Origin: Flavobacteriales bacterium
GTDB lineage: Bacteria; Bacteroidota; Bacteroidia; Flavobacteriales; Flavobacteriaceae
Length of the DNA: 64,000 bases
Reading direction: 5' to 3'
Assembly (NCBI GenBank): GCA_027067965.1
Contig: JAMOUV010000004.1
Span: 1-64,000, forward strand
The position numbers and the translations under genes are program-made. Shown here one piece after another: positions 4,353 through 16,592 of the stretch. Below the pieces are notes generated by a model. The model worked only from the letters and a program-made list of their open reading frames with translations, did not search any database and was not told the origin of the DNA. Every line of letters begins with the position of its first letter. The first letter of the stretch is position 1.

Positions 4353-5906
4353 ATGCAAGCACCTTTAGGAGAAGATTTTTCCCGCAAAGGACGGGCACAA
4401 TTTTTTGATATGGAAGGAGCCAAAATCCCTCCTCATTCCATTGAATTGGAAAAAAACGTATTGGGAGCTATGTTAGTGGATAAACGTGGTATTAACGAAG
4501 TCATAGATATTCTTCACCCCGATACTTTTTACGATCCTAAGCATCAATTAATTTATCAAGCCATTTTCGACCTTTTTGAATCCGGACATCCCGTGGATTT
4601 ATTGACCGTAACCAAACAACTCGAAAAAAACGGAAATTTGGATGAAGCAGGTGGCGCGGCTTATTTAATGGAATTATCCAATTTGGTAACCTCGGCAGCC
4701 AATATCAAATATCACACCCACATTTTAATGGAATTTTACATTCGCCGCCAATTGATTACCATTGGGCAAAAAATGCAAATGGAAGGATATGATGAAACCA
4801 AAGACATCTTTAATATTCTGGACGAAGCCGAAAGAGATTTATTTAATATTTCTCAAGGCGGATTAAAGCAGAGTGTCGCACCAATGGACGATGTCCTTTT
4901 ACGCATCAAGCACGAATTGGAAGAAATGACCCAACATGATAAATTGCCCGGGGTACCGTCGGGTTATCCCAGTTTGGATGAAATAACCGCCGGTTGGCAA
5001 CGAGGCGACCTTATTATCCTGGCAGCACGGCCTTCCATGGGTAAAACTGCCTTTGCCCTCAATATGGCCCGCAACATGGTGATCGATCATAAAATTCCCG
5101 TGGCTTTCTTTTCTTTGGAAATGAATGCGGAACAATTAATTAAACGAATTCTGTCTCGCGAAACCCTAATTCCTTCCGAAAAATTTAGAACCGGAAAATT
5201 CACCAAACAAGAACTTATCGTGTTGGAAGAAAAAACAAGATTTCTGGCTGCCAATCCGCATTTATACATCAACGATAGTTCCGTATTGAGCATTTTTGAT
5301 TTACGTGCCCAAGCACGACGCTTAAAACAAAAACATCATATTCAAGCCATTTTTATTGACTATTTGCAACTTATGCATGCCTCCGACCGGATGAAACCCG
5401 GAAATCGCGAACAGGAAATTTCAACCATTTCACGTAACCTCAAAGCATTGGCCAAAGAATTGGATATTCCCATTATCGCCCTATCACAATTGTCACGGAA
5501 AGTGGAAGACCGGGCAAGGCATGAAAGTGCTCATAAACGTCCTATGCTATCCGACTTACGGGAATCCGGTGCCATTGAACAAGATGCGGATATCGTGGCC
5601 TTTATTTACCGGCCGGAATATTATAAAATTTTCGAATGGGACGATGCCGAAGGCACACCCGCCGAAGGAGAAGTGGAACTCTATATTGCCAAGCATCGAA
5701 ACGGGAAAACCGCCCAATTATATTTCAAATTCCAAAAAGAATTCGGGCTCATTACCGAAAGAGACGCCACCTTTAATTTGGACACAGGAGGAAGCGTTTT
5801 CCCTTCTCAAATGAATACCATCCATCCTCCTAACGATCCCTTCGGACTAAATGAAGATAAAGATCATGATCCGTCAAAACCCGATGAAAATGACATGCCG
5901 TTTTAA
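4353..5906 (+). CDS. dnaB: Replicative DNA helicase DnaB
   Basis: The hexameric 5'-3' helicase at the replication fork, 517 residues. The N-terminal primase-interacting domain starts around IPPHSIELEKNVLGAML. The RecA-like domain has the Walker A motif ARPSMGKTAFA near residue 230, Walker B at IFIDYLQLM, and the arginine-finger region in DLRESGAIEQDADIV. The C-terminus is acidic (ENDMPF), as in many DnaB proteins. No intein is present. Co-transcription with the fur-like gene is likely, and the stop overlaps the next gene's start region. Confidence 0.96.
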   Translation: MQAPLGEDFSRKGRAQFFDMEGAKIPPHSIELEKNVLGAMLVDKRGINEVIDILHPDTFYDPKHQLIYQAIFDLFESGHPVDLLTVTKQLEKNGNLDEAGGAAYLMELSNLVTSAANIKYHTHILMEFYIRRQLITIGQKMQMEGYDETKDIFNILDEAERDLFNISQGGLKQSVAPMDDVLLRIKHELEEMTQHDKLPGVPSGYPSLDEITAGWQRGDLIILAARPSMGKTAFALNMARNMVIDHKIPVAFFSLEMNAEQLIKRILSRETLIPSEKFRTGKFTKQELIVLEEKTRFLAANPHLYINDSSVLSIFDLRAQARRLKQKHHIQAIFIDYLQLMHASDRMKPGNREQEISTISRNLKALAKELDIPIIALSQLSRKVEDRARHESAHKRPMLSDLRESGAIEQDADIVAFIYRPEYYKIFEWDDAEGTPAEGEVELYIAKHRNGKTAQLYFKFQKEFGLITERDATFNLDTGGSVFPSQMNTIHPPNDPFGLNEDKDHDPSKPDENDMPF

Positions 5907-7161
5907 ATGCAAATTCTTCATAATTTTTCTTCTTTTTTTGGGAATGAATCAAATTGTTGCCCAATTTATGCTTATTCCCATGGACGAAAATCAACACGAG
6001 CATCTCAAGGCATACGGCGTGGTATATCGAACGCTCGAACGAGGTATTAAAGTCAAATGGCTTCTCAATTATAGAGGCGGGGCGTTTTTAATTCCATACG
6101 ATGAAGAAATAAAAGATGATTGCTTGATGAAAAATGTTGATTATGAAGAAATTACATCCGACGAATCGATACAAATTCTAAACGAAGTAGAGAGTCCGGC
6201 CGTGAATATGCATGCAGTAATTTTAGAAAAACCGCCTAAAATTGCCGTTTACTCACCCAAAGATAACATGCCATGGGACGACGCCGTCACCCTGGCCTTG
6301 ACTTATGCAGAAATACCTTATGATGTGGTCTATGACAAAGAAGTTCTCAGCGGAGAGTTAATGAAATACGACTGGCTGCACCTGCATCATGAAGATTTTA
6401 CCGGCCAATACGGCCGTTTCTATGCCGGTTACCGAACCGCTCCCTGGTATGTGGAAAGAAAACAACAACTCGAGAAATTGGCACAAGAATTGGGTTTTAA
6501 TAAAGTATCGAAACTCAAATTGGCTGTGGCTGAAGAGATTCTAAAATTCGTTCAAGGAGGCGGTTTTTTGTTTGCCATGTGCTCGGCCACAGACACTTTG
6601 GATATCGCGCTTGCCGCTCACAATACCGACATTTGCGAAGCCATGTATGACGGCGACCCTTCGGAGCCCAATTATCAGGAAAAATTGGATTTTACCAAAA
6701 CTTTCGCTTTTGAAAATTTCATTTTGGAACCCGATCCGATGGTATATGAATTTTCAAATATAGACACTTCGCGTAAACGGAACGTACCGATGAAAAACGA
6801 CTATTTCGAACTATATGAATTTTCAGCCAAATATGACCCCGTTCCTACTATGCTCACCCAAAATCATACGGTATTAATTAAAGGTTTCTATGGTCAAACC
6901 ACGGCTTTTAACCCCAAAACCATCAAGAAAAATATTATCATTTTAGCCGAAACCGGCTGGAACGGAGAAGTAAAATATTTACACGGAAAAAAAGGCAAAG
7001 GCATGTTTACTTTCTATGGCGGCCATGATCCCGAGGATTACAAACATAAAGTCGGCGACCCGAAGACCGAACTTAAACTCTACCCTACCTCTCCGGGTTA
7101 CAGGTTGATACTCAACAACATATTATTTCCCGCCGCCGAAAAACAAAAGAAAAAAACTTAA
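5884..7161 (+). CDS. Conserved secreted Bacteroidota protein (often labelled asparagine synthetase B)
   Basis: About 425 residues with a signal peptide (FFIIFLLFLGMNQIVAQ). The mature part opens FMLIPMDENQHEHLKAYG, typical of a Bacteroidota family that databases frequently name asparagine synthetase B. I see neither the glutaminase N-terminal Cys nor the PP-loop of true AsnB, so that name should not be taken as function. ThuA or glutamine-amidotransferase-like fold features are possible (GGGFLFAMCSATDTL). Start chosen at 5884 or 5890, overlapping the end of dnaB. recN follows after 6 nt, so it sits inside the dnaB-recN run. Function unknown. Confidence 0.7.
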   Translation: MKMTCRFKCKFFIIFLLFLGMNQIVAQFMLIPMDENQHEHLKAYGVVYRTLERGIKVKWLLNYRGGAFLIPYDEEIKDDCLMKNVDYEEITSDESIQILNEVESPAVNMHAVILEKPPKIAVYSPKDNMPWDDAVTLALTYAEIPYDVVYDKEVLSGELMKYDWLHLHHEDFTGQYGRFYAGYRTAPWYVERKQQLEKLAQELGFNKVSKLKLAVAEEILKFVQGGGFLFAMCSATDTLDIALAAHNTDICEAMYDGDPSEPNYQEKLDFTKTFAFENFILEPDPMVYEFSNIDTSRKRNVPMKNDYFELYEFSAKYDPVPTMLTQNHTVLIKGFYGQTTAFNPKTIKKNIIILAETGWNGEVKYLHGKKGKGMFTFYGGHDPEDYKHKVGDPKTELKLYPTSPGYRLILNNILFPAAEKQKKKT

Positions 7162-7167
7162 TGCCGG

Positions 7168-8832
7168 ATGCTGGAATCCTTACACATAAAAAATTATGCA
7201 CTGATTGATCAAATGCAAATGGAATTCTCCCCGGATTTGAATGTAATAACAGGAGAAACCGGCACGGGTAAATCCATTATGATAAAAGGTTTATCGCTTA
7301 TATTAGGAAAACGTGCCGACAAAGATGCCATCCGCAATAAAAATGAAAAAATCATTGTGGAAGGACATTTCCGTCTCAATGAAAAGGAATTAAAACCTCT
7401 CTTCGATCATCTTGATTTGGATTTTGACAAGCATACCATTATCCGACGTGAAATAACGCCTTCCGGAAAATCACGCGCCTTTGTGAACGATACACCCGTG
7501 CGCTTGGATGATTTGGAAAAAATAGGCGAAAAAATTATCGATATTCATTCCCAACATCAACAAATCCTGCTCCAACGAAAGGATTTTCAATTTGATTTTA
7601 TTGATAGTTTATCCAATAATTTGGACTTACGAAATCGATACGCCGGCTTATTATATGAATTCCGGGAAAACCGAAAGGAACTGGAAAAATGGAAAATGCA
7701 TAAACAACAATTGCTGGCCAATGAAGATTACAGGCGGTTCCAATTGAACGAATTGGCTTCGCTTAATTGGGATTTGGATTTGGATAAGGCGGAACTACAA
7801 TTAAAAAATTTTCAAAATCAGGAAGAAATTCTAATTAAATTAAATGAAGCCATTCAATTATTGGATGACGATAATTTCGGGATAATCGAGCGTTTCCGGC
7901 AAGTAAAAAACACCATGGAAAATCTTTCCGGATTTGATAAACGTTTGGAAGAATTGCATACCCGAACCGAGAATCTTTTCCCCGAATTGGGTGAGTTATC
8001 CTACGACATACACCAATTATTCGAAGAATTTCAATTGATGGATACAAGCGAAAAAGAAAAATTGGAAAGAGAAATTAACCGATTTTTCGAACTTATGCAA
8101 AAACACCGCGTCAATACCAAAGAAGAACTGAAAGCGCTTTATGACAAATGGCAATCCGAACAATCAGACCTTTCCCTTGTGGATGAAAAAATCAAATTTC
8201 TCCATCACAAAACCGATGAATTACAGAATCAATTAAAAAAATTATCTCGTCAATTACATGAAAAACGTCTGAAAAGCATCCCCGAGATTGAAAATCTCAT
8301 GCACAAATTCATGGCGGATTTAGGCATGGAAAACAGCCGGATAAAAATTCATTTAACCCCCGGAGACACATTCGACCGGTTCGGAACGGATGAATTACAA
8401 ATTTTGTTGTCACCTGATAAAGGCAAAACTTTCGGACAAATAAATAAAATTGCCTCCGGCGGAGAAATTTCACGTATCATGTTGATTATCAAGTATCTTA
8501 TCTCTCAAAAGAAACATCTCCCTGCCATTATTTTTGATGAAATCGATGCCGGTGTGTCAGGAGAAATCGCAAGAAAAATGGCTCGGCTTATCGAAAAAAT
8601 GAGTGGTCATATGCAAGTCATTGTCATTACTCATCTTCCGCAAATGGCAGTCAAAGGAAGCCGCCATTTTAAAGTACTAAAAGAAGAAATTAACGGACAA
8701 ATCGTTTCCGGCATAAAAGAACTCCGGAAAAACGAACGAATCCATGAAATTGCTGAAATGTTGGAAGGCAAACCACCTTCAGCTTCTGCACTCGAACATG
8801 CCGCCCACCTACTCGGTGTAAAATCTAAGTAA
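7168..8832 (+). CDS. recN: DNA repair protein RecN
   Basis: An SMC-like ATPase of double-strand-break repair, 554 residues. Walker A is GETGTGKS at residues 29-36 and the middle of the protein is a long coiled coil (about 150-370). An ABC signature ASGGEISRIML and a Walker B segment AIIFDEIDAGVSG complete the C-terminal half. Length and motif order are normal for RecN. It is the last gene of the rightward run starting at the fur-like gene, and the 420 bp after it are AT-rich and gene-free. Confidence 0.95.
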   Translation: MLESLHIKNYALIDQMQMEFSPDLNVITGETGTGKSIMIKGLSLILGKRADKDAIRNKNEKIIVEGHFRLNEKELKPLFDHLDLDFDKHTIIRREITPSGKSRAFVNDTPVRLDDLEKIGEKIIDIHSQHQQILLQRKDFQFDFIDSLSNNLDLRNRYAGLLYEFRENRKELEKWKMHKQQLLANEDYRRFQLNELASLNWDLDLDKAELQLKNFQNQEEILIKLNEAIQLLDDDNFGIIERFRQVKNTMENLSGFDKRLEELHTRTENLFPELGELSYDIHQLFEEFQLMDTSEKEKLEREINRFFELMQKHRVNTKEELKALYDKWQSEQSDLSLVDEKIKFLHHKTDELQNQLKKLSRQLHEKRLKSIPEIENLMHKFMADLGMENSRIKIHLTPGDTFDRFGTDELQILLSPDKGKTFGQINKIASGGEISRIMLIIKYLISQKKHLPAIIFDEIDAGVSGEIARKMARLIEKMSGHMQVIVITHLPQMAVKGSRHFKVLKEEINGQIVSGIKELRKNERIHEIAEMLEGKPPSASALEHAAHLLGVKSK

Positions 8833-9171
8833 ATCCATGCCAAATCATTCCCATTTTTATATCTATTGATACATTATTATATTTTTTCATATGAATTTAT
8901 GTTCATAATTATAATTTTTCATACGAATTTTTGTCACAGATTACATTTTTTCGTACGAAACATAGAACAAGATTACGTTTTTTGAACGAATGCACAGGTC
9001 CCGATAGCGCCGGACGGGCAATTTTTTCCCTATTTTTTTCCGGATTATATCGCAATAAATCGCATTTCCATAAAATTATATTTTTTTTCCTTGAAAAATT
9101 ATTCACTAATTCACTATCTCACTAATTCTCTCAAAAAAATTGTTCATTGTTCATTGTTCATTTTTCATTGA

Positions 9172-9192
9172 AAACGCCCGATTCGGGCGTTT
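9172..9192 (-). terminator. Rho-independent-type hairpin downstream of reverse gyrase
   Basis: AAACGCCCG-ATT-CGGGCGTTT is a perfect 9-bp stem with a 3-nt loop. On the minus strand it lies about 60 nt beyond the reverse gyrase stop and ends in a short T run. It could act in both directions. Confidence 0.6.
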
Positions 9193-9214
9193 CAACGTTC
9201 CGGTTGGATATTTC

Positions 9215-9236
9215 GCGACGCGAGGCATCGCGTCGC
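9215..9236. repeat. Perfect inverted repeat GCGACGCGA-GGCA-TCGCGTCGC
   Basis: Nine paired bases with a 4-nt loop, far more GC-rich than the surrounding sequence. Motifs of this look occur as dispersed repeats in Bacteroidota genomes (recalled, not checked). It lies between the terminator hairpin and the reverse gyrase stop codon. Confidence 0.75.
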
Positions 9237-9253
9237 TACTATTCACTAAAACA

Positions 9254-12200
9254 CTATTTCACTGATTCACTAGGAAAAACCTTCTCATACAACCTTTCCA
9301 ATTCCTGCTTATAATCCCTCCTGCCCGCTTCAATTTCATCCATTATCCCTTCCAATTTGGCCGTAAAATCCACATTTACAAATTCTTTAAATGGCGATTG
9401 ATATACCAAATCGTTTACTTTGAAACCCAGCTTGGTGGCGAACAAAAATCCTTTGCGTTCCACCACGTATTTACGCTGTAATAATTTTTCCAGTGTCACG
9501 GCGTAGGTGGACGGCCGGCCGATGCCTTCTTCCTTCATTTTTTGGATGATATCGGCATAGGTGTAAGGCGGATATTTGGATTTTTCGGTCAAGGTTTTGT
9601 CAGCAGGATAGAGGCCTTCGCGGATTTCCGTTATATGCACGGGATAAATCAAATCGAAACCGTGTTCCAAAATGCGGGTGATAAACTCCTTTTCGACATC
9701 CAAAATGCGGAAGCGTTCTTTCAGGACACGGGTTTCTTTCATTTGCGAAGCGATAAAGCGCCGGAAAATCAAATCGTATAAACGCAAGTGTTCGTCCGAA
9801 AGTTCCATGCCGCGGCTAAGAAGGAAACTTTGCAGGTCGTCACGGTCCATGGTAGTGGTGGCGCGAATGGCTTCGTGGGCACCGTCTTCGTTGAAAGGGC
9901 GAAGTTTTACGAATGCTTCACCGAAATATTCCGTAATGTATTCCTTGGCCAAATGCATCCCCACGGGCGAAATACGGTGACTGTCCGTACGGTGGTAAGT
10001 AATATGACCTTGTTCGAATAGGTCTTGCGCCAGTTGCATGGTCTTTTGCGGCGAAAAACGAAGTTGCACGGCCGCTTCGCGCAATAAATCCGGCGTATTG
10101 AAGGGACGAACGATCAAATCGTCTTCGCTTTCGCCCGTTTTGATGACTTGAATTTCAGCGGGAATGCTTTGGAGAAATCGTTCCGCTTCGTCCCGGGTAT
10201 CGAATTCAAAATCGACGGAAATGCCGTTCAAACTAACCCGGACAATATAGATTTTCTCGTCCAAAGCGCGGGTGCGTTCGCAAATCCAATTCAATACGGG
10301 CGTTTGGACACGTCCGGCCGAAAGATGCGCATTTTTCAATTCTTTTTGGACATATTGGGAGACTTTAAAACCCACCCAACGATCGGCAATGCGGCGAACG
10401 AATTGAGCGGCGGTGCGGTGAAGGTCCACCTCACGCGGTTGGTGCAGTGCCTGTTCAAAAGCATATTTGGTGATTTCGTGAAATTCCGCTCTGCTTATGT
10501 TTTTATTGTAGGGCGTGTTGTTCAACCATAAATCGAAAGCAATTTTTTCCCCTTCGCGGTCCGGATCGGTGGCAATAAAGGTTTCGGCGGTTTCATGCGC
10601 CGCCAAATGCAATGCTTTCAGGATGTTTTCTTTCTCTTCCAATACGCGATATACCGGGACATACCGGTTGATAACGCCCCAAAGACCTTCGTTTTCGATT
10701 AAATCGAAATCATGACCGATGCTTGCGGACAGTACCAACACGCGGTCTTCCAAAAGCACTTCATAGACGCTCACCCCATTGACAATCCTTCGTCCGGGAC
10801 GGCCGTAAAAGTTGGCGATGGTTTTGGCTTTGGTAGGCGATTCCACCACGACAAAAGTGGTTTTCCACTCGATTTTTTCGTCGCTCCTGCGGGTGCGGTC
10901 GATTTCTTCCCATATTTCGCTCCATTCGATTTCATCCGCCGGTTTGAGTTCCGTTCCGGCAAACCAACGCAATTTTTTTCGCAACGAATAAAAGGCCTTT
11001 TCGTTATCTACCAGCGTTAAGGCCAAGCCTTTGGTCAGATGACCGCGATAAAACCGGCTTGTCCGTCCCGATGCTTGAATATAACCCGTTATGTCGGCCG
11101 TGATCATTTTCTCGCCGTCAAAAGCGATTTCGGGCGATTGGCGAATTTCCGTTTCAAACCGGCGCACCAAGTCCCGGAAATTTTCGGCAATGGTTTCCAG
11201 CCGCTCCCGGATTTTTTCGCTCACTTGCGGCAGAAACACATATTGTTTCATGAATTGAACATCTTGCCGGATACGTGCCGCTTGGCCCGGGTTCAATAAT
11301 TTCTTTTTGATTAAATAAGGAAAAACCGCCAGCATGATAAAATACATGCTTCGCAAATAGTCATCGTTCAGGCGGAATTCCATTTTCGGGACGCCTACAA
11401 ACAACGCATAACGCACCGCTTCGGGCAAGTCGATGCCCCGCGCCAAGGGATTGCGATAGGAAGCAAAACCGGCAAAAAAACATTCACCCCGCCTGAATGC
11501 ATCCAAATGTTCGCGAAATTCATCATAAGTATATGTACGAACGGCTTGACGATTTAGATATGCCACATATTCCGTTAAAGTTTCCCGGGTTTCGTTGCCC
11601 GGTAGAAACAGAAGGCCGCCCCGTCCCAGCCGGCGGATCCAATCTACCGATTTCTCCCAAGAAAATTCCCGGTCATACACATCCTCGATATTGCGCAGAC
11701 GCAGATTGGGTTTGCTCACTTCAAAACCCAGTAAATAGCGAAACAACAAAATCCGTCGTGAACGCGGATTGGCCGTAGCGGAACTAACAATCAAATTGCC
11801 TTTTTTCCTGCGGGACAGCCGGTCTAATTTTTCATATTCCTTCCGGTCGATATACCGAAGCGCCCGTTCCAAATCCCGGTCCGAAAAACCCACCAGCGAC
11901 AATACGTCCGTTATCTTGCGTCCGCTTTTAAGAATACTGTCCACATCGTCCACAAACACCAGGCGGAAATCCTTCCGGATAAGGTCGCGGTTTTTATACA
12001 GGAATTGCGTGGTGGTAATCAAAATATCGTATTCCCCGCGCGCGATTTGTTCCTTTTCCCGCTTTTTGCCCGTGTAGGCCAAGCCGTCAATGCCCCATTG
12101 TTGCAAGCGTTCCAATGCTTGAAAAACCAACAGTCGCGTGGGAAAAAGCAAGTAGGTATTTTTGACAAACCCCGCCAAAAGCAATCCGAAGGTTGTCTTA

Positions 12201-12499
12201 CCGATACCCGTGGGTGCCAGCATGGCAAAAGAATGTCCCAGAAAAAAACGTTTGGCCCACATCCGCTGAATGGGACTGAGATCACTACCCACCTTTTCGC
12301 GAAAAAACCGGTTAAAGCCATCCGTATTTTCGTCCGCCGTGCAAAAAGCATGATAATTTCCCAAGTTTTCGCAATCCGTTTCCCCTTCGAGTTCCGCCAT
12401 ACAACGGTCGCAAAATTCCCCCTTCGCCAAGCGCTCGGACGTAATATCGCCCCCGCATCGCGGGCATTGGTTTTTGTAGATGGCGGGTAATGGTTGCAT
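9254..12499 (-). CDS. rgy: Reverse gyrase (helicase-topoisomerase IA fusion)
   Basis: A 1081-residue ATP-dependent enzyme that introduces positive supercoils, normally found only in organisms growing at very high temperature. The order is: zinc finger C12/C15/C30/C33; helicase domain with Walker A APTGIGKT (95-102), DDVD (184-187) and SSATANPRS (~238); helicase motif VI QASGRTSRFYRG (~476); topoisomerase part from VVESPTKAKT (~547); TOPRIM TDPDREGEK (~641); active-site tyrosine in ITYHRTDSH (~830); and GIGRPSTYA near the C-terminus. The second zinc finger usually present between the topoisomerase start and TOPRIM is not seen. Sampled GC is about 47% (10081-10380) against 37% in recN (7501-7800), which suggests horizontal acquisition. 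Its last codons run into an ATTCACTA repeat. The frame is intact. Confidence 0.95.
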   Translation of the reverse strand: MQPLPAIYKNQCPRCGGDITSERLAKGEFCDRCMAELEGETDCENLGNYHAFCTADENTDGFNRFFREKVGSDLSPIQRMWAKRFFLGHSFAMLAPTGIGKTTFGLLLAGFVKNTYLLFPTRLLVFQALERLQQWGIDGLAYTGKKREKEQIARGEYDILITTTQFLYKNRDLIRKDFRLVFVDDVDSILKSGRKITDVLSLVGFSDRDLERALRYIDRKEYEKLDRLSRRKKGNLIVSSATANPRSRRILLFRYLLGFEVSKPNLRLRNIEDVYDREFSWEKSVDWIRRLGRGGLLFLPGNETRETLTEYVAYLNRQAVRTYTYDEFREHLDAFRRGECFFAGFASYRNPLARGIDLPEAVRYALFVGVPKMEFRLNDDYLRSMYFIMLAVFPYLIKKKLLNPGQAARIRQDVQFMKQYVFLPQVSEKIRERLETIAENFRDLVRRFETEIRQSPEIAFDGEKMITADITGYIQASGRTSRFYRGHLTKGLALTLVDNEKAFYSLRKKLRWFAGTELKPADEIEWSEIWEEIDRTRRSDEKIEWKTTFVVVESPTKAKTIANFYGRPGRRIVNGVSVYEVLLEDRVLVLSASIGHDFDLIENEGLWGVINRYVPVYRVLEEKENILKALHLAAHETAETFIATDPDREGEKIAFDLWLNNTPYNKNISRAEFHEITKYAFEQALHQPREVDLHRTAAQFVRRIADRWVGFKVSQYVQKELKNAHLSAGRVQTPVLNWICERTRALDEKIYIVRVSLNGISVDFEFDTRDEAERFLQSIPAEIQVIKTGESEDDLIVRPFNTPDLLREAAVQLRFSPQKTMQLAQDLFEQGHITYHRTDSHRISPVGMHLAKEYITEYFGEAFVKLRPFNEDGAHEAIRATTTMDRDDLQSFLLSRGMELSDEHLRLYDLIFRRFIASQMKETRVLKERFRILDVEKEFITRILEHGFDLIYPVHITEIREGLYPADKTLTEKSKYPPYTYADIIQKMKEEGIGRPSTYAVTLEKLLQRKYVVERKGFLFATKLGFKVNDLVYQSPFKEFVNVDFTAKLEGIMDEIEAGRRDYKQELERLYEKVFPSESVK

Positions 12500-12554
12500 G
12501 GGTGAGGTTTTGAGGGTTTAAATTACGATATTTTTTGGATTTTTTGTTTTAGGG

Positions 12555-12990
12555 TCGGCCCTTCGACGGTGGTTCGACAAGTCCTTCGATTACACTCAGG
12601 AACCACTCACCAACAGCTCAGGGGCCGGTTCTTCGGCAAACTCAGAGGCCCAGCTAATCAGAGCCTGAGCAAGGTCGAAGGCGGTGGTTCAGCCCTTCGG
12701 CAGGCTCAGGGCCTGGTCTTCAATAAACTCAAGTATCGGCCCTTCGACGGGTGGTTCGATAAGTCCTTCGATTACACTCAGGAACCACTCACCAACCGCT
12801 CAGGGGCCCGGCTAATCGGAGCCTGAGCGAAGTCGAAGGCGGGGGTTCAGGCCTTCGATAAATTCAAAAACCGGCCCTTCGGCAGGCTCAGGGCCCGGTT
12901 TTTCGACTGGCTCAGGGGCCGGACGATTGGAGCCCGATTCTGCTCGTTATGAGCTTACCAAATAGTCGAAGGCGGTTATTCGACTTGTCC
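12555..12990. repeat. Repeat block A: CTTCGACAAGCTCAGG-type palindromic repeats
   Basis: Forward cores of the type CCCTTCGGCAGGCTCAGGG occur at about 12631, 12693, 12875 and 12901. Inverted cores of the type GCCTGAGCGAAGTCGAAGGC occur at 12663 and 12821, and a broken one at 12931-12973. About 182 bp is duplicated: the stretch from 12554 (GGCCCTTCGACGG, then CTTCGATTACACTCAGGAAC) returns from 12736 with few changes. Forward and inverted cores can pair CTTCGAC with GTCGAAG and CTCAGG with CCTGAG. The block lies upstream of reverse gyrase and ends in a gene remnant. Confidence 0.9.
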
Positions 12991-13075
12991 TTCAGCTTGC
13001 AACGGAACCGGCAAAGACGAACAGGGCAACACATGTAAGACATGTAACGGAACGGGAAGAGTAAATAGGCATTAG
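12953..13075 (+). pseudogene. Remnant of a CxxCxGxG (DnaJ zinc-finger-like) small protein
   Basis: The frame ending at the TAG at 13073 reads CNGTGKDEQGNTCKTCNGTG followed by RVNRH, two DnaJ-type CxxCxGxG modules (the first has lost its leading C-x-x spacing). A stop at 12950-12952 lies just upstream, no start codon exists in frame, and the codons before CPSACNGTG are repeat sequence (GTCGAAGGC). This looks like the 3' end of a small cysteine-rich gene whose 5' part was replaced or cut by repeat block A. Confidence 0.6.
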
Positions 13076-13169
13076 AATTTATTTTCATAGTCATGTTATG
13101 CGGAATTTTTCTACTTTATAAATTGAGGAGAAATGGGCTTATTATGATTAATATAAAGAAAATTTTCTT

Positions 13170-13177
13170 TATTTTTG
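13170..13177 (+). promoter_or_regulatory. Candidate -7 box for the TlpA-like lipoprotein gene
   Basis: TATTTTTG fits TAnnTTTG and ends 18 nt before the ATG at 13196. No TTTG is seen at the -33 distance. Confidence 0.4.
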
Positions 13178-13195
13178 AAAAAATAAACATTCTTT

Positions 13196-14341
13196 ATGAA
13201 AAATTTCTTTTTTTTCGTCGTGGTATTTTTCCTCGTCGATTGTCATTCCACTAAAAAAATTATTCCCGAGAACAAACCTACCGGTATTATTATTGAAGGA
13301 AATGTAACGGGTTTCCCGGATAGCACAAAGGTATATCTCCAAAATCAATCTTTGGAAAAATATGTTGACAGTACGTTTTTAATACGCAACCGTTTTGTAT
13401 TGCGAACCCGGTTGGAACAAGACAGCATCCCCGAAGAATTATTAGTATACCTTGAAGCGAACGGTAATCCGTTTACATACGTGAATCTTTTCCTGCGCAA
13501 CGGCGACAGTGTCCGCATCAGCGGAGATAAAAATGATTTTCCATTCAACCTGAAAATAGAAGGGTCAACCACTCAAGATGAAATGAATGAATTGAGGCGC
13601 AAAGTAATACCTTATGAATTGAAATCTCAAGAATTATATGAAAAGATCATGCGATTGAAACCCGATGAAAAAACCAAACGCGACAGTCTCTACCTACTGG
13701 CAAAACAATTGGAAGATTCGGTACGGCAAGCCGAAAAGGAATATATCCTTCAACATCCCAATACTTTTGCTTCGGCTTTATTATTGAGTTATGAAAACGA
13801 TTTGTTTCCAAAAGATACCATTAAAATGTTGCTCAATCGTATGTCTCCGTTGATAAGAAAGAGTAAATACGGGAAATTATTAGAAAACCTGGTAAACAGC
13901 GGTCAAGTAGAAGAAGGCAAACCCTTCTATGATTTTACCGCCTTAGACCCCCAAGGAAAAGAAATCCGCTTTTCGGATTTGATGGAACCGGGGAAATATA
14001 TTTTATTGGAATTTACATCCGCAAGTTGTGCTCCTTGTGTCTATGCTGCTAAAGAATTAGCTGAAATCAACCGGCAATACGGAAATAAAATCAAAATCGT
14101 GAGTTTTTCGGTAGATGCATCCAAGGAAACATGGCTCCATACTATAAAAAGAGATAGCGTTACTTGGACATATTTATGGGATGGCAAAGGACGTTACAGC
14201 CCGGTTGTCATATCATATCAAGTGCAAGGCGTACCTACATTTGTATTGATTAGTCCGCAAGGGATAGTACAAAAAATGTTTTCAGGTTATGGTAAAGGCA
14301 TATTGCTTACCACACTGAAAAAAGAAGGGGTAATTGAATAA
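13196..14341 (+). CDS. TlpA-like thioredoxin-fold lipoprotein with DUF4369-type N-terminus
   Basis: A 381-residue envelope protein. A hydrophobic N-terminus ends in a lipobox (FFLVDC), so lipidation at the cysteine is likely. Residues ~30-130 resemble the DUF4369 beta domain that commonly precedes Bacteroidota thioredoxins, followed by a charged helical linker. From about residue 240 the thioredoxin-like domain begins (FYDFTALDPQGKEIRF), with the active site SCAPC near 282 and the cis-proline loop GVPTFVL. It probably reduces or isomerises disulfides of envelope proteins. It stands alone between repeat blocks A and B, so no partner is indicated. Confidence 0.85.
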   Translation: MKNFFFFVVVFFLVDCHSTKKIIPENKPTGIIIEGNVTGFPDSTKVYLQNQSLEKYVDSTFLIRNRFVLRTRLEQDSIPEELLVYLEANGNPFTYVNLFLRNGDSVRISGDKNDFPFNLKIEGSTTQDEMNELRRKVIPYELKSQELYEKIMRLKPDEKTKRDSLYLLAKQLEDSVRQAEKEYILQHPNTFASALLLSYENDLFPKDTIKMLLNRMSPLIRKSKYGKLLENLVNSGQVEEGKPFYDFTALDPQGKEIRFSDLMEPGKYILLEFTSASCAPCVYAAKELAEINRQYGNKIKIVSFSVDASKETWLHTIKRDSVTWTYLWDGKGRYSPVVISYQVQGVPTFVLISPQGIVQKMFSGYGKGILLTTLKKEGVIE

Positions 14342-14391
14342 CAAGATTTTTTTAATAAAAGGGAGAATAAATCATCCTATGAAGATCATGG

Positions 14392-14554
14392 TTCGGCCCT
14401 TAGACAAGCTCAGGGCCCGGTCGATTGGAGCCTGAGCGAAGTCAAAGGCGGGGGTTTAGCCCTTCGATAAATTCAAAAACCGGCCCTTCGGCAGGCTCAG
14501 GGACCGGTCTTTCGGCAGGCTCAAGGACCGGTCTTTTGATTAACTCAGGGGCCG
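14392..14554. repeat. Repeat block B, directly upstream of the GIY-YIG gene
   Basis: In order: a forward core (14397-14420, CCCTTAGACAAGCTCAGGG), an inverted core (14427-14449, GAGCCTGAGCGAAGTCAAAG), then four forward cores, the last two more decayed, each closed by a GG(A/G)CCGG segment. The block ends 28 nt before the start codon of the GIY-YIG gene. Similar words AATAAATCATCCTATGAA (14367-14384) and AATAAATCATCATGAA (14572-14587) flank it. Confidence 0.9.
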
Positions 14555-14582
14555 GTCATTAAGTAAACCTAAATAAATCATC

Positions 14583-14888
14583 ATGAAAGGATATGTTTAC
14601 ATTCTCAAATGCGCCGATGGAAGTTACTACACAGGTAGTACCAAAAATTTATGGAAAAGATTAATGGAGCATCAAAGTGGCGAAGGTGCCAATTACACCC
14701 GAAAGCGGCTTCCGGTGGAACTGGTATATTACGAAGAATTTAATCGAATTGATGAAGCTTTTTATAGAGAACACCAAATTAAAAAATGGAGTAGAAAGAA
14801 AAAGGAAGCATTGATAGAACGTAATTTTGAAGTGTTGAAAAAATTGTCTAAATCAAAAAGAAAGAATAAAGAGAATAGGTCTTTTTAG
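14583..14888 (+). CDS. Small GIY-YIG nuclease domain protein (YhbQ/UPF0213-like)
   Basis: A 101-residue protein made almost entirely of one GIY-YIG nuclease domain. The two half-motifs are GYVYILKC (residues 3-10) and YYTGST (15-20). Catalytic residues can be proposed as Y6, Y16, R26, H30 and E63 (YREHQIKKWSR). The C-terminus is a lysine-rich tail. Stand-alone proteins of this class have mostly unassigned roles in DNA repair or processing. The gene is flanked on both sides by CTTCGACAAGCTCAGG-type repeats, with the stop codon only a few bases before the downstream block. That arrangement suggests the nuclease and repeats form one element (inference). Confidence 0.88.
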   Translation: MKGYVYILKCADGSYYTGSTKNLWKRLMEHQSGEGANYTRKRLPVELVYYEEFNRIDEAFYREHQIKKWSRKKKEALIERNFEVLKKLSKSKRKNKENRSF

Positions 14889-14892
14889 AAAA

Positions 14893-15360
14893 GGGCCTTC
14901 GGTAAGATCAGGGGCCGGCCCTTCGATAAACTCAGGGACCAGCCCTTCAAAAAACTCAAAAAATCGGCCCTTCGACAAGCTCAGGGGCCGGTTCTTCGAC
15001 AAGCTCAGGGGCCGGCCGATTGGAGCCTGAGCGAAGTCGAAGGCAATGGTTCGGCCCTTCGACAAGCTCAGGGGCCGGTTCTTCGACAAGCTCAGGGGCC
15101 GGCCGATTGGAGCCTGAGCGAAGTCGAAGGCAATGGTTCGGCCCTTCGGCAGGCTCAGGGCCAGGATATTCGATAAACTCAAGGACCGGACCTTCGACTG
15201 GCTCAGGGACCGGCTAATTGGAGCCTGAGCAAGGTCGAAGGCGGGGGTTTAATACTTCAATAAACTCAAAGACCGGCCTTTCGACATGCTCAAGGACCGG
15301 TCTTTTGATAATAGTTAGACTCGCTCACCAAACACTCAGGGGCCGGGTAATCAGAGCCAA
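14893..15360. repeat. Repeat block C, downstream of the GIY-YIG gene, with an 87-bp tandem unit
   Basis: Forward cores CTTCGACAAGCTCAGG (or variants) alternate with inverted cores CCTGAGCGAAGTCGAAG. A unit of two forward cores and one inverted core repeats at 14965, 15052 and 15139 with a period of exactly 87 bp. The third copy diverges after its first core. The block decays towards 15360 (TCGCTCACCAAACACTCAGG). Frames that stay open through this block, on either strand, are products of the repeats and not genes. Confidence 0.92.
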
Positions 15361-15695
15361 ACCTAACTTGCATAAGAATTAATTATTATGAAATATGATC
15401 AATGAAATTTTAAATCATTTTCCATCCGAAACATGCCCCTTAAAATGACAAATATCATGGGATAAAAAAAATTTATGTGATTTTAATCTTTATCAAACTT
15501 TATTCTTGCAATATGCTGACAATTAGCATATTATTGTTTGTTCGACCAAATTATTGTGTGGGGCATAAAAAGATTTTAAAGTAAATTATAGGAGATAAAA
15601 CTTCTTAAAACCTTACATTTTTTCGATGATTTTTACCGGATTTCTATCAACTTCCGAAAAAAACTTAAATTTGTATTTCAAAAAAACAAAAAATT
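15361..15695. other. AT-rich intergenic region before fabI
   Basis: No coding frame or RNA gene is supported. A TATTCTTG word at 15501-15508 and the candidate fabI -7 box at 15666 are the only signals seen. Confidence 0.5.
15666..15673 (+). promoter_or_regulatory. Candidate -7 box for fabI
   Basis: TAAATTTG fits TAnnTTTG and would place the transcript start about 15-20 nt before the fabI ATG. There is no clean TTTG at the -33 distance. Confidence 0.45.
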
Positions 15696-16523
15696 ATGGC
15701 CTATAATTTACTGAAAGGAAAGAAAGGAATTATTTTTGGAGCGCTGGACGAGAATTCCATTGCATGGAAAGTGGCTGAAAAGGCCCATGAAGAAGGTGCT
15801 CAATTTGTTTTAACTAATGCCCCCGCCGCCATGCGTTTGGGAGAGATTAATGAACTTGCCGAAAAAACAGGCAGTGAAATAATCCCCGCAGACGCCACGA
15901 GTTTGGAAGATTTGGAAAATCTCATAGACAAGTCCATGGAAATCCTGGGTGGAAAATTGGATTTTGTTCTACATTCAATCGGTATGTCACTGAACGTCCG
16001 TAAAAAACGGCCTTATACCAACTTGCGATATGATTGGTTAACCAAAGGTTGGGACGTATCGGCCGTTTCGTTTCATAAATTAATGCAATTACTCTACAAT
16101 AAAGAAGCCATGAACGAATGGGGCTCCATTGTAGCATACACATACATTGCAGCCCAACGGGTCTTTCCCGATTACAACGATATGGCGGATAACAAAGCGT
16201 ATTTGGAAAGCATCGCACGTAATTTCGGATACTGGTTCGGAAAGAAATTCAAAGTACGAGTCAATACCATTTCGCAGTCTCCTACCCCGACTACGGCAGG
16301 TAAGGGCGTGAAAAGTTTTGAAATTTTCTTGGATTATGCCGATAAAATGTCGCCTTTGGGCAACGCTACCGCCGAAGATTGTGCCGATTATACCATTACG
16401 CTTTTCTCGGATTTGACCCGTAAAGTAACCATGCAAAACCTCTTTCACGACGGCGGTTTTTCCACCACCGGCGTATCGAAAGAAATCATGGAAATCTTTA
16501 CGAAAAATTCCGGCTCGAAATAA
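15696..16523 (+). CDS. fabI: Enoyl-[acyl-carrier-protein] reductase (NADH) FabI
   Basis: A short-chain dehydrogenase that reduces trans-2-enoyl-ACP in the last step of each type II fatty-acid elongation round; the target of triclosan-type inhibitors. 275 residues. The nucleotide-binding start GIIFGALDENSIAWKVA is the FabI variant of the Rossmann motif. The catalytic set is Y150, Y160 and K167, keeping the FabI Y-x6-Y-type spacing (10 and 7 residues). QSPTPTTAGKG resembles the substrate loop of Bacteroidota FabI. Expressed alone, with no acyl-carrier gene adjacent. Confidence 0.94.
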   Translation: MAYNLLKGKKGIIFGALDENSIAWKVAEKAHEEGAQFVLTNAPAAMRLGEINELAEKTGSEIIPADATSLEDLENLIDKSMEILGGKLDFVLHSIGMSLNVRKKRPYTNLRYDWLTKGWDVSAVSFHKLMQLLYNKEAMNEWGSIVAYTYIAAQRVFPDYNDMADNKAYLESIARNFGYWFGKKFKVRVNTISQSPTPTTAGKGVKSFEIFLDYADKMSPLGNATAEDCADYTITLFSDLTRKVTMQNLFHDGGFSTTGVSKEIMEIFTKNSGSK

Positions 16524-16532
16524 TCATTCATA

Positions 16533-16592
16533 TTTTTATTTTGGCATTATTCTTTTTACTCCTTTTTATTTTGGCATTATTCTTTTTACTCC
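16533..16592. repeat. Perfect 30-bp tandem duplication after fabI
   Basis: The 30-bp unit starting TTTTTATTTTGGCATTATTC occurs twice with no mismatch (16533-16562 and 16563-16592), in the gap between fabI and the DUF3810 gene. It looks like a recent slippage or duplication. Confidence 0.9.

Follow-up and report, generated by a model that had tools for sequence, protein, structure and literature searches.

A Campylobacterota-type reverse gyrase gene in a recN-fabI insert of a Bacteroidota genome

The window (the whole 64,000-nucleotide stretch analysed here, taken from the beginning of a contig of 159,521 bases) contains a gene, rgy, that encodes a complete reverse gyrase (RG). It is likely that this is a genuine, probably active RG of the Nautiliaceae type (Campylobacterota), which a moderately thermophilic member of the Bacteroidota acquired horizontally and which now lies in an insert between its recN and fabI genes. 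RGs combine an ATP-driven helicase domain with a topoisomerase domain that carries out strand passage, and they re-anneal DNA and supercoil it positively; for organisms that are uncultured or ancestral, growth temperature is inferred from the presence of RG. Moderate thermophiles with RG are known already, and what is new here is the Campylobacterota-type RG in an unexpected Bacteroidota host with a clean empty site. The rgy gene and its parts, in window coordinates, are:

9254-12499, minus strand: rgy, reverse gyrase, 1081 aa (open reading frame, profile matches, alignment)
12398-12466, minus strand: Zn1 zinc finger, C12/C15/C30/C33 (alignment; zf_Rg PF17915)
12185-12220, minus strand: Walker A, LAPTGIGKTTFG, residues 94-105 (alignment)
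11939-11950, minus strand: Walker B, DDVD, residues 184-187 (alignment)
11774-11785, minus strand: helicase motif III, SSAT, residues 239-242 (alignment)
11054-11077, minus strand: helicase motif VI, QASGRTSR, residues 475-482 (alignment)
10472-10852, minus strand: TOPRIM domain, residues 550-676, including E553 (Pfam and alignment)
10553-10567, minus strand: TOPRIM acidic motif DPDRE, residues 645-649 (alignment)
9305-10417, minus strand: type IA topoisomerase domain, residues 695-1065 (Pfam)
9995-9997, minus strand: catalytic tyrosine Y835 (alignment)
9172-9192, minus strand: palindrome AAACGCCCGATTCGGGCGTTT 3' of rgy, picked out by eye, a possible terminator

The rgy reading frame runs from an ATG at 12499 to a stop codon ending at 9254, 1081 codons with no internal stop. 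Its product scores 1021.4 bits against TIGR01054, the curated equivalog model for rgy (cut-off 471.7), carries the Pfam domains zf_Rg, DEAD, Toprim and Topoisom_bac in the RG order in a single chain, and aligns over nearly its full length with the RGs of T. maritima and A. fulgidus, whose structures are solved. In an alignment with those two proteins, 18 full-length Campylobacterota RGs and a Thermus plasmid RG, the helicase half has intact Zn1, Walker A, DDVD, SSAT and motif VI, and the topoisomerase half has intact TOPRIM E553, DPDRE, SAGRVQ, Y835, GAHEAIR and GIGRPSTYA; all of the ATPase and TOPRIM residues checked for changes are in place. The profile match, the domain order and the catalytic motifs thus bear out the claim, made in an earlier note on this DNA, that the gene encodes a complete RG. 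That note's phrase "every part" of the enzyme holds for Zn1 and for the helicase, TOPRIM and tyrosine motifs, but is slightly too strong because the enzyme lacks a second zinc finger (Zn2): the alignment shows no CxxC in residues 610-630. Zn2 is also absent from all 18 of the full-length Campylobacterota RGs aligned, and, since just 62% of RGs conserve it and 38% lack it (PMC6878951), it does not define the family. It is cited by Catchpole and Forterre as important for positive supercoiling (PMC6878951), so supercoiling by the predicted enzyme may be weak. The latch lies between motifs V and VI, and this segment is present and of normal length. The whole architecture and the catalytic residues are shared with the T. 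maritima RG (PDB 4ddt), although the two proteins are 36% identical and the latter has a second zinc finger region. An AlphaFold2 model built from a two-row alignment (mean pLDDT 33.9) plays no part in our conclusions.

The closest named relative of the window RG, at 61% identity, is encoded by a Nautiliaceae MAG (JALTBU010000074, L015). Matches to RG are present in 19 of 397 Campylobacterota genomes and fall into two clades: clade A, which includes the Nautiliaceae MAG and eight other Campylobacterota genomes, has RGs of 1069-1079 aa after trimming that are 57-64% identical to the window RG, and the RGs of clade B are 1106-1145 aa long and 45-49% identical to it. A maximum-likelihood tree, which left out the RGs of Aquificota, Thermodesulfobacteriota and Kryptonia, groups the window RG with clade A with 100/100 support, as does a tree with the distant outgroups removed; the AU test of a position nested in clade A versus one sister to it gives p = 0.052 with and 0.21 without those outgroups. 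On this grouping an archaeal origin or join is rejected; the earlier note, too, had not taken a simple assembly join with an archaeon as the first explanation. The apt comparison group for the window RG is Campylobacterota, not archaea. The window RG shares with the Nautiliaceae-type RGs its full-length identity of 57-64%, its domain order, a size of ~1070-1080 aa, the lack of Zn2 and all motifs, and differs from them in host phylum, gene GC (48% against 25-34%), neighbourhood and the repeat-bearing recN-fabI insert. Since an RG of Campylobacterota type is now seen in another phylum, genes of this type in environmental DNA need not all be from Campylobacterota. Published "Epsilon-like" rgy primers (PMC2628731) have 8-9 mismatches to the window gene, no better than background. 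The RG of Thermus thermophilus pTT27 is likewise bacterial and accessory, but is carried on a megaplasmid, is ~41% identical to the window RG (tblastn) and does not group with the Campylobacterota RGs in the tree. When carriage by phages and plasmids was searched, full-length RG was found only on Thermus plasmids and, at the sensitivity used, none in phages or IMG/VR.

The earlier note had called RG rare in this phylum, and in overlapping samples of 395 genomes from the phylum, 396 from the order and 395 from the class, the window's own genome is indeed the only carrier; no RG above the TIGR01054 cut-off is present in 59 relatives, of which eight are congeners and 51 are other members of the family and order. 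We found no report of RG from this part of the Bacteroidota in the open-access papers that were searched. The known nearby case is Kryptonia, a lineage of the Bacteroidetes-Chlorobi-Fibrobacteres superphylum that is related to Bacteroidetes but separate from them (PMC4737851), whose RGs are absent from the matches in the sampled phylum, order and class genomes. The Kryptonia RG resembles the window RG in superphylum and in horizontal acquisition; unlike the window RG, its reported source is the archaeal order Thermoproteales, and, unlike the window lineage, all Kryptonia genomes carry RG and are inferred to be extreme thermophiles (PMC4737851).

The host MAG is 2.05 Mb, 98.3% complete and 0.79% contaminated, and has no 16S gene, so that of a congener (G005; L115 1501-3039) was used for placement. 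Its best named matches are all Bacteroidota, at 78-82.5% identity, and it is 80-84% identical to the 16S genes of family and order members, which are themselves 84-93% identical to one among them, G022. By this congener 16S the host phylum is Bacteroidota, and the lineage is divergent; at lower rank the host probably belongs in or near the Flavobacteriales, on the basis of kinship labels and of the 16S of one family member, which is nearest Flavobacterium among named records. We note that the G005 16S is unusually divergent and GC-rich (56%), suggesting that this genus forms a thermophilic lineage of its own in the Bacteroidota.

The features of the locus around rgy are:

7168-8832, plus strand: recN, left flank, syntenic in congeners
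8833-15695, no strand: insert between recN and fabI, ~6.9 kb (6.86), absent in congener G007
12568-12990, no strand: 24-nt-period repeats in the insert (repeat analysis)
13196-14341, plus strand: TlpA-like / DUF4369 gene in the insert (domain match)
14382-14570, no strand: 24-nt-period repeats in the insert (repeat analysis)
14583-14888, plus strand: GIY-YIG domain protein in the insert (domain match)
14896-15350, no strand: 24- and 87-nt-period repeats in the insert (repeat analysis)
15696-16523, plus strand: fabI, right flank, with 92% identity to the orthologue in G007

rgy is flanked by DnaB and recN genes on one side and by the TlpA/DUF4369, GIY-YIG, fabI and DUF3810 genes on the other. 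Congener G007 (L078) has the empty site, in which recN (5805-7463) and fabI (7517-8338) are separated by 53 bp; its order is DnaB, a conserved gene, recN, the 53 bp, fabI and DUF3810, and the same genes flank the window insert. The gene order of the genus is kept on both sides; the earlier note had described the flanking genes as ordinary Bacteroidota genes. The other congeners have different genes 3' of recN: in G006, G008 and G002 (L080, L081, L082) recN is followed not by fabI but by a gene starting MKVLGIMSGTSLDG, which by eye is anmK-like, so gene order at recN varies within the genus. The 24-nt-period repeats are GC-rich (CCTTCGACAAGCTCAGGGGCCGG), and their core pattern occurs in seven copies in the insert, but neither elsewhere in ~460 kb of host DNA nor in the congener DNA sampled. 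For the insert's TlpA/DUF4369 gene, a paralogue with 51% identity lies at G000:C10:44088-45185, and the codon usage of this gene matches that of the host well; the insert may therefore have a mixed origin. With an acquisition seen in one species, the G007 empty site and eight congeners that lack RG, nature offers closely related genomes with and without RG in a lineage of moderate thermophiles, so that the contribution of RG to a genome that is not made for extreme heat can be put to the test.

The GC content of the window rgy is 48.1% (GC3 53.6%), in the top 2-3% of host genes, and that of the clade A RG genes is 25-34% (GC3 12-31%). Codon fit per codon is -1.03 to -1.05 to congener genomes, -1.08 to the host and -1.58 to the clade A loci, and rgy ranks fourth among 289 host genes in preferring congener over host codon usage. 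This host-genus codon usage and GC, unlike that of clade A, makes contamination very unlikely, and contamination from Nautiliaceae in particular is rejected on both counts. The GC of rgy exceeds that of the presumed donors in clade A as well as the mean of the host, so the gene did not arrive by a recent, direct jump out of a known Nautiliaceae. Judging from codon fit, rgy was probably an earlier resident of a Bacteroidota-like genome of ~48% GC, either this lineage at an earlier time or a relative.

The fraction of IVYWREL residues is 0.410 in the host, 0.404 in one congener and 0.383 in one family member. A published linear relation connects this fraction with growth temperature and gives rough estimates of ~49 °C, ~44 °C and ~24 °C, respectively. 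The congener 16S has a GC content of 56.1%, and the values measured for other members of the family and order are 46-54%; tRNA GC was dropped as a proxy, as the sampled host DNA contains too few tRNAs. These compositional proxies suggest that the host is a moderate thermophile growing at roughly 45-55 °C. The earlier note's reading, in which RG marks growth at very high temperature, is not supported, as the proteome and congener 16S proxies point to moderate thermophily instead and the RG clade includes Nautiliaceae, a family with moderate thermophiles. Published moderate thermophiles of the Nautiliaceae carry RG (PMC2628731, PMC6878951); N. profundicola grows best at 40-45 °C and at 65 °C induces rgy more than 100-fold (PMC2628731). 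The proxies for the host fit this RG clade.

The window RG is most likely a horizontally acquired, probably heat-responsive DNA-protection enzyme. Its helicase-like N-terminal half would open and rewind duplex DNA with ATP hydrolysis, and its type IA topoisomerase half would pass strands by means of Y835, so raising the linking number and re-annealing single-stranded regions; the enzyme would protect the chromosome during heat, perhaps in a vent-like habitat. Horizontal transfer, whether direct or via an intermediate, would have brought the gene out of the Nautiliaceae-type Campylobacterota RG pool and into a moderately thermophilic Bacteroidota, where it occupies a small insert in the chromosome, between recN and fabI. 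That the insert is in addition a small mobile heat-protection island circulating among thermophilic Bacteroidota, with an RG pre-adapted to Bacteroidota codons that would confer tolerance to heat spikes without a hyperthermophilic genome background, is a speculative extension that we regard as unlikely.

Among other explanations, an intact enzyme with a shifted function, one that lacks Zn2 and is induced by heat mainly for DNA annealing or strand-break protection with little positive supercoiling, is possible though doubtful; Zn2 is missing from the window RG and from all 18 Campylobacterota RGs aligned with it, but 38% of RGs overall lack it (PMC6878951) and the latch segment has kept its length. 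It is improbable that the host is an extreme thermophile or hyperthermophile with an optimum above 65-75 °C and a constitutive need for RG, as in most carriers. Its proteome and its congener's 16S are shifted toward thermophily relative to the family, and 89% of RG species with a known optimum grow best above 65 °C (PMC6878951), but the rough IVYWREL estimate is ~49 °C, the congener 16S GC is 56%, eight congeners have no RG and the nearest RG clade comes from a group with moderate thermophiles (PMC2628731).

Assembly chimerism or a binning error, in which a fragment of a vent Campylobacterota or another thermophile was joined to a Bacteroidota contig, has very little probability. The host is a MAG, rgy has atypical GC for it and repeats adjoin the gene; against this stand the 159.5-kb contig, on which synteny conserved in the genus flanks the insert left and right, codon usage that fits the genus and not the clade A donors, and a MAG contamination of 0.79%, and two breaks would be required within a recN-fabI junction that is intact in G007. 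Hardly credible is an ancestral Bacteroidota RG retained in this lineage only: Kryptonia, a separate FCB lineage, does have RG (PMC4737851), but for that RG a source in Thermoproteales is reported (PMC4737851), the tree disfavours such ancestry by placing the window RG inside or beside a Campylobacterota clade (100/100), and rgy lies in an insert that is absent from G007.

We also note an exact 30-bp tandem duplication just after fabI (16533-16592) and, at the start of the contig (1-612), about five tandem copies of a 118-bp repeat that probably ended the assembly there.
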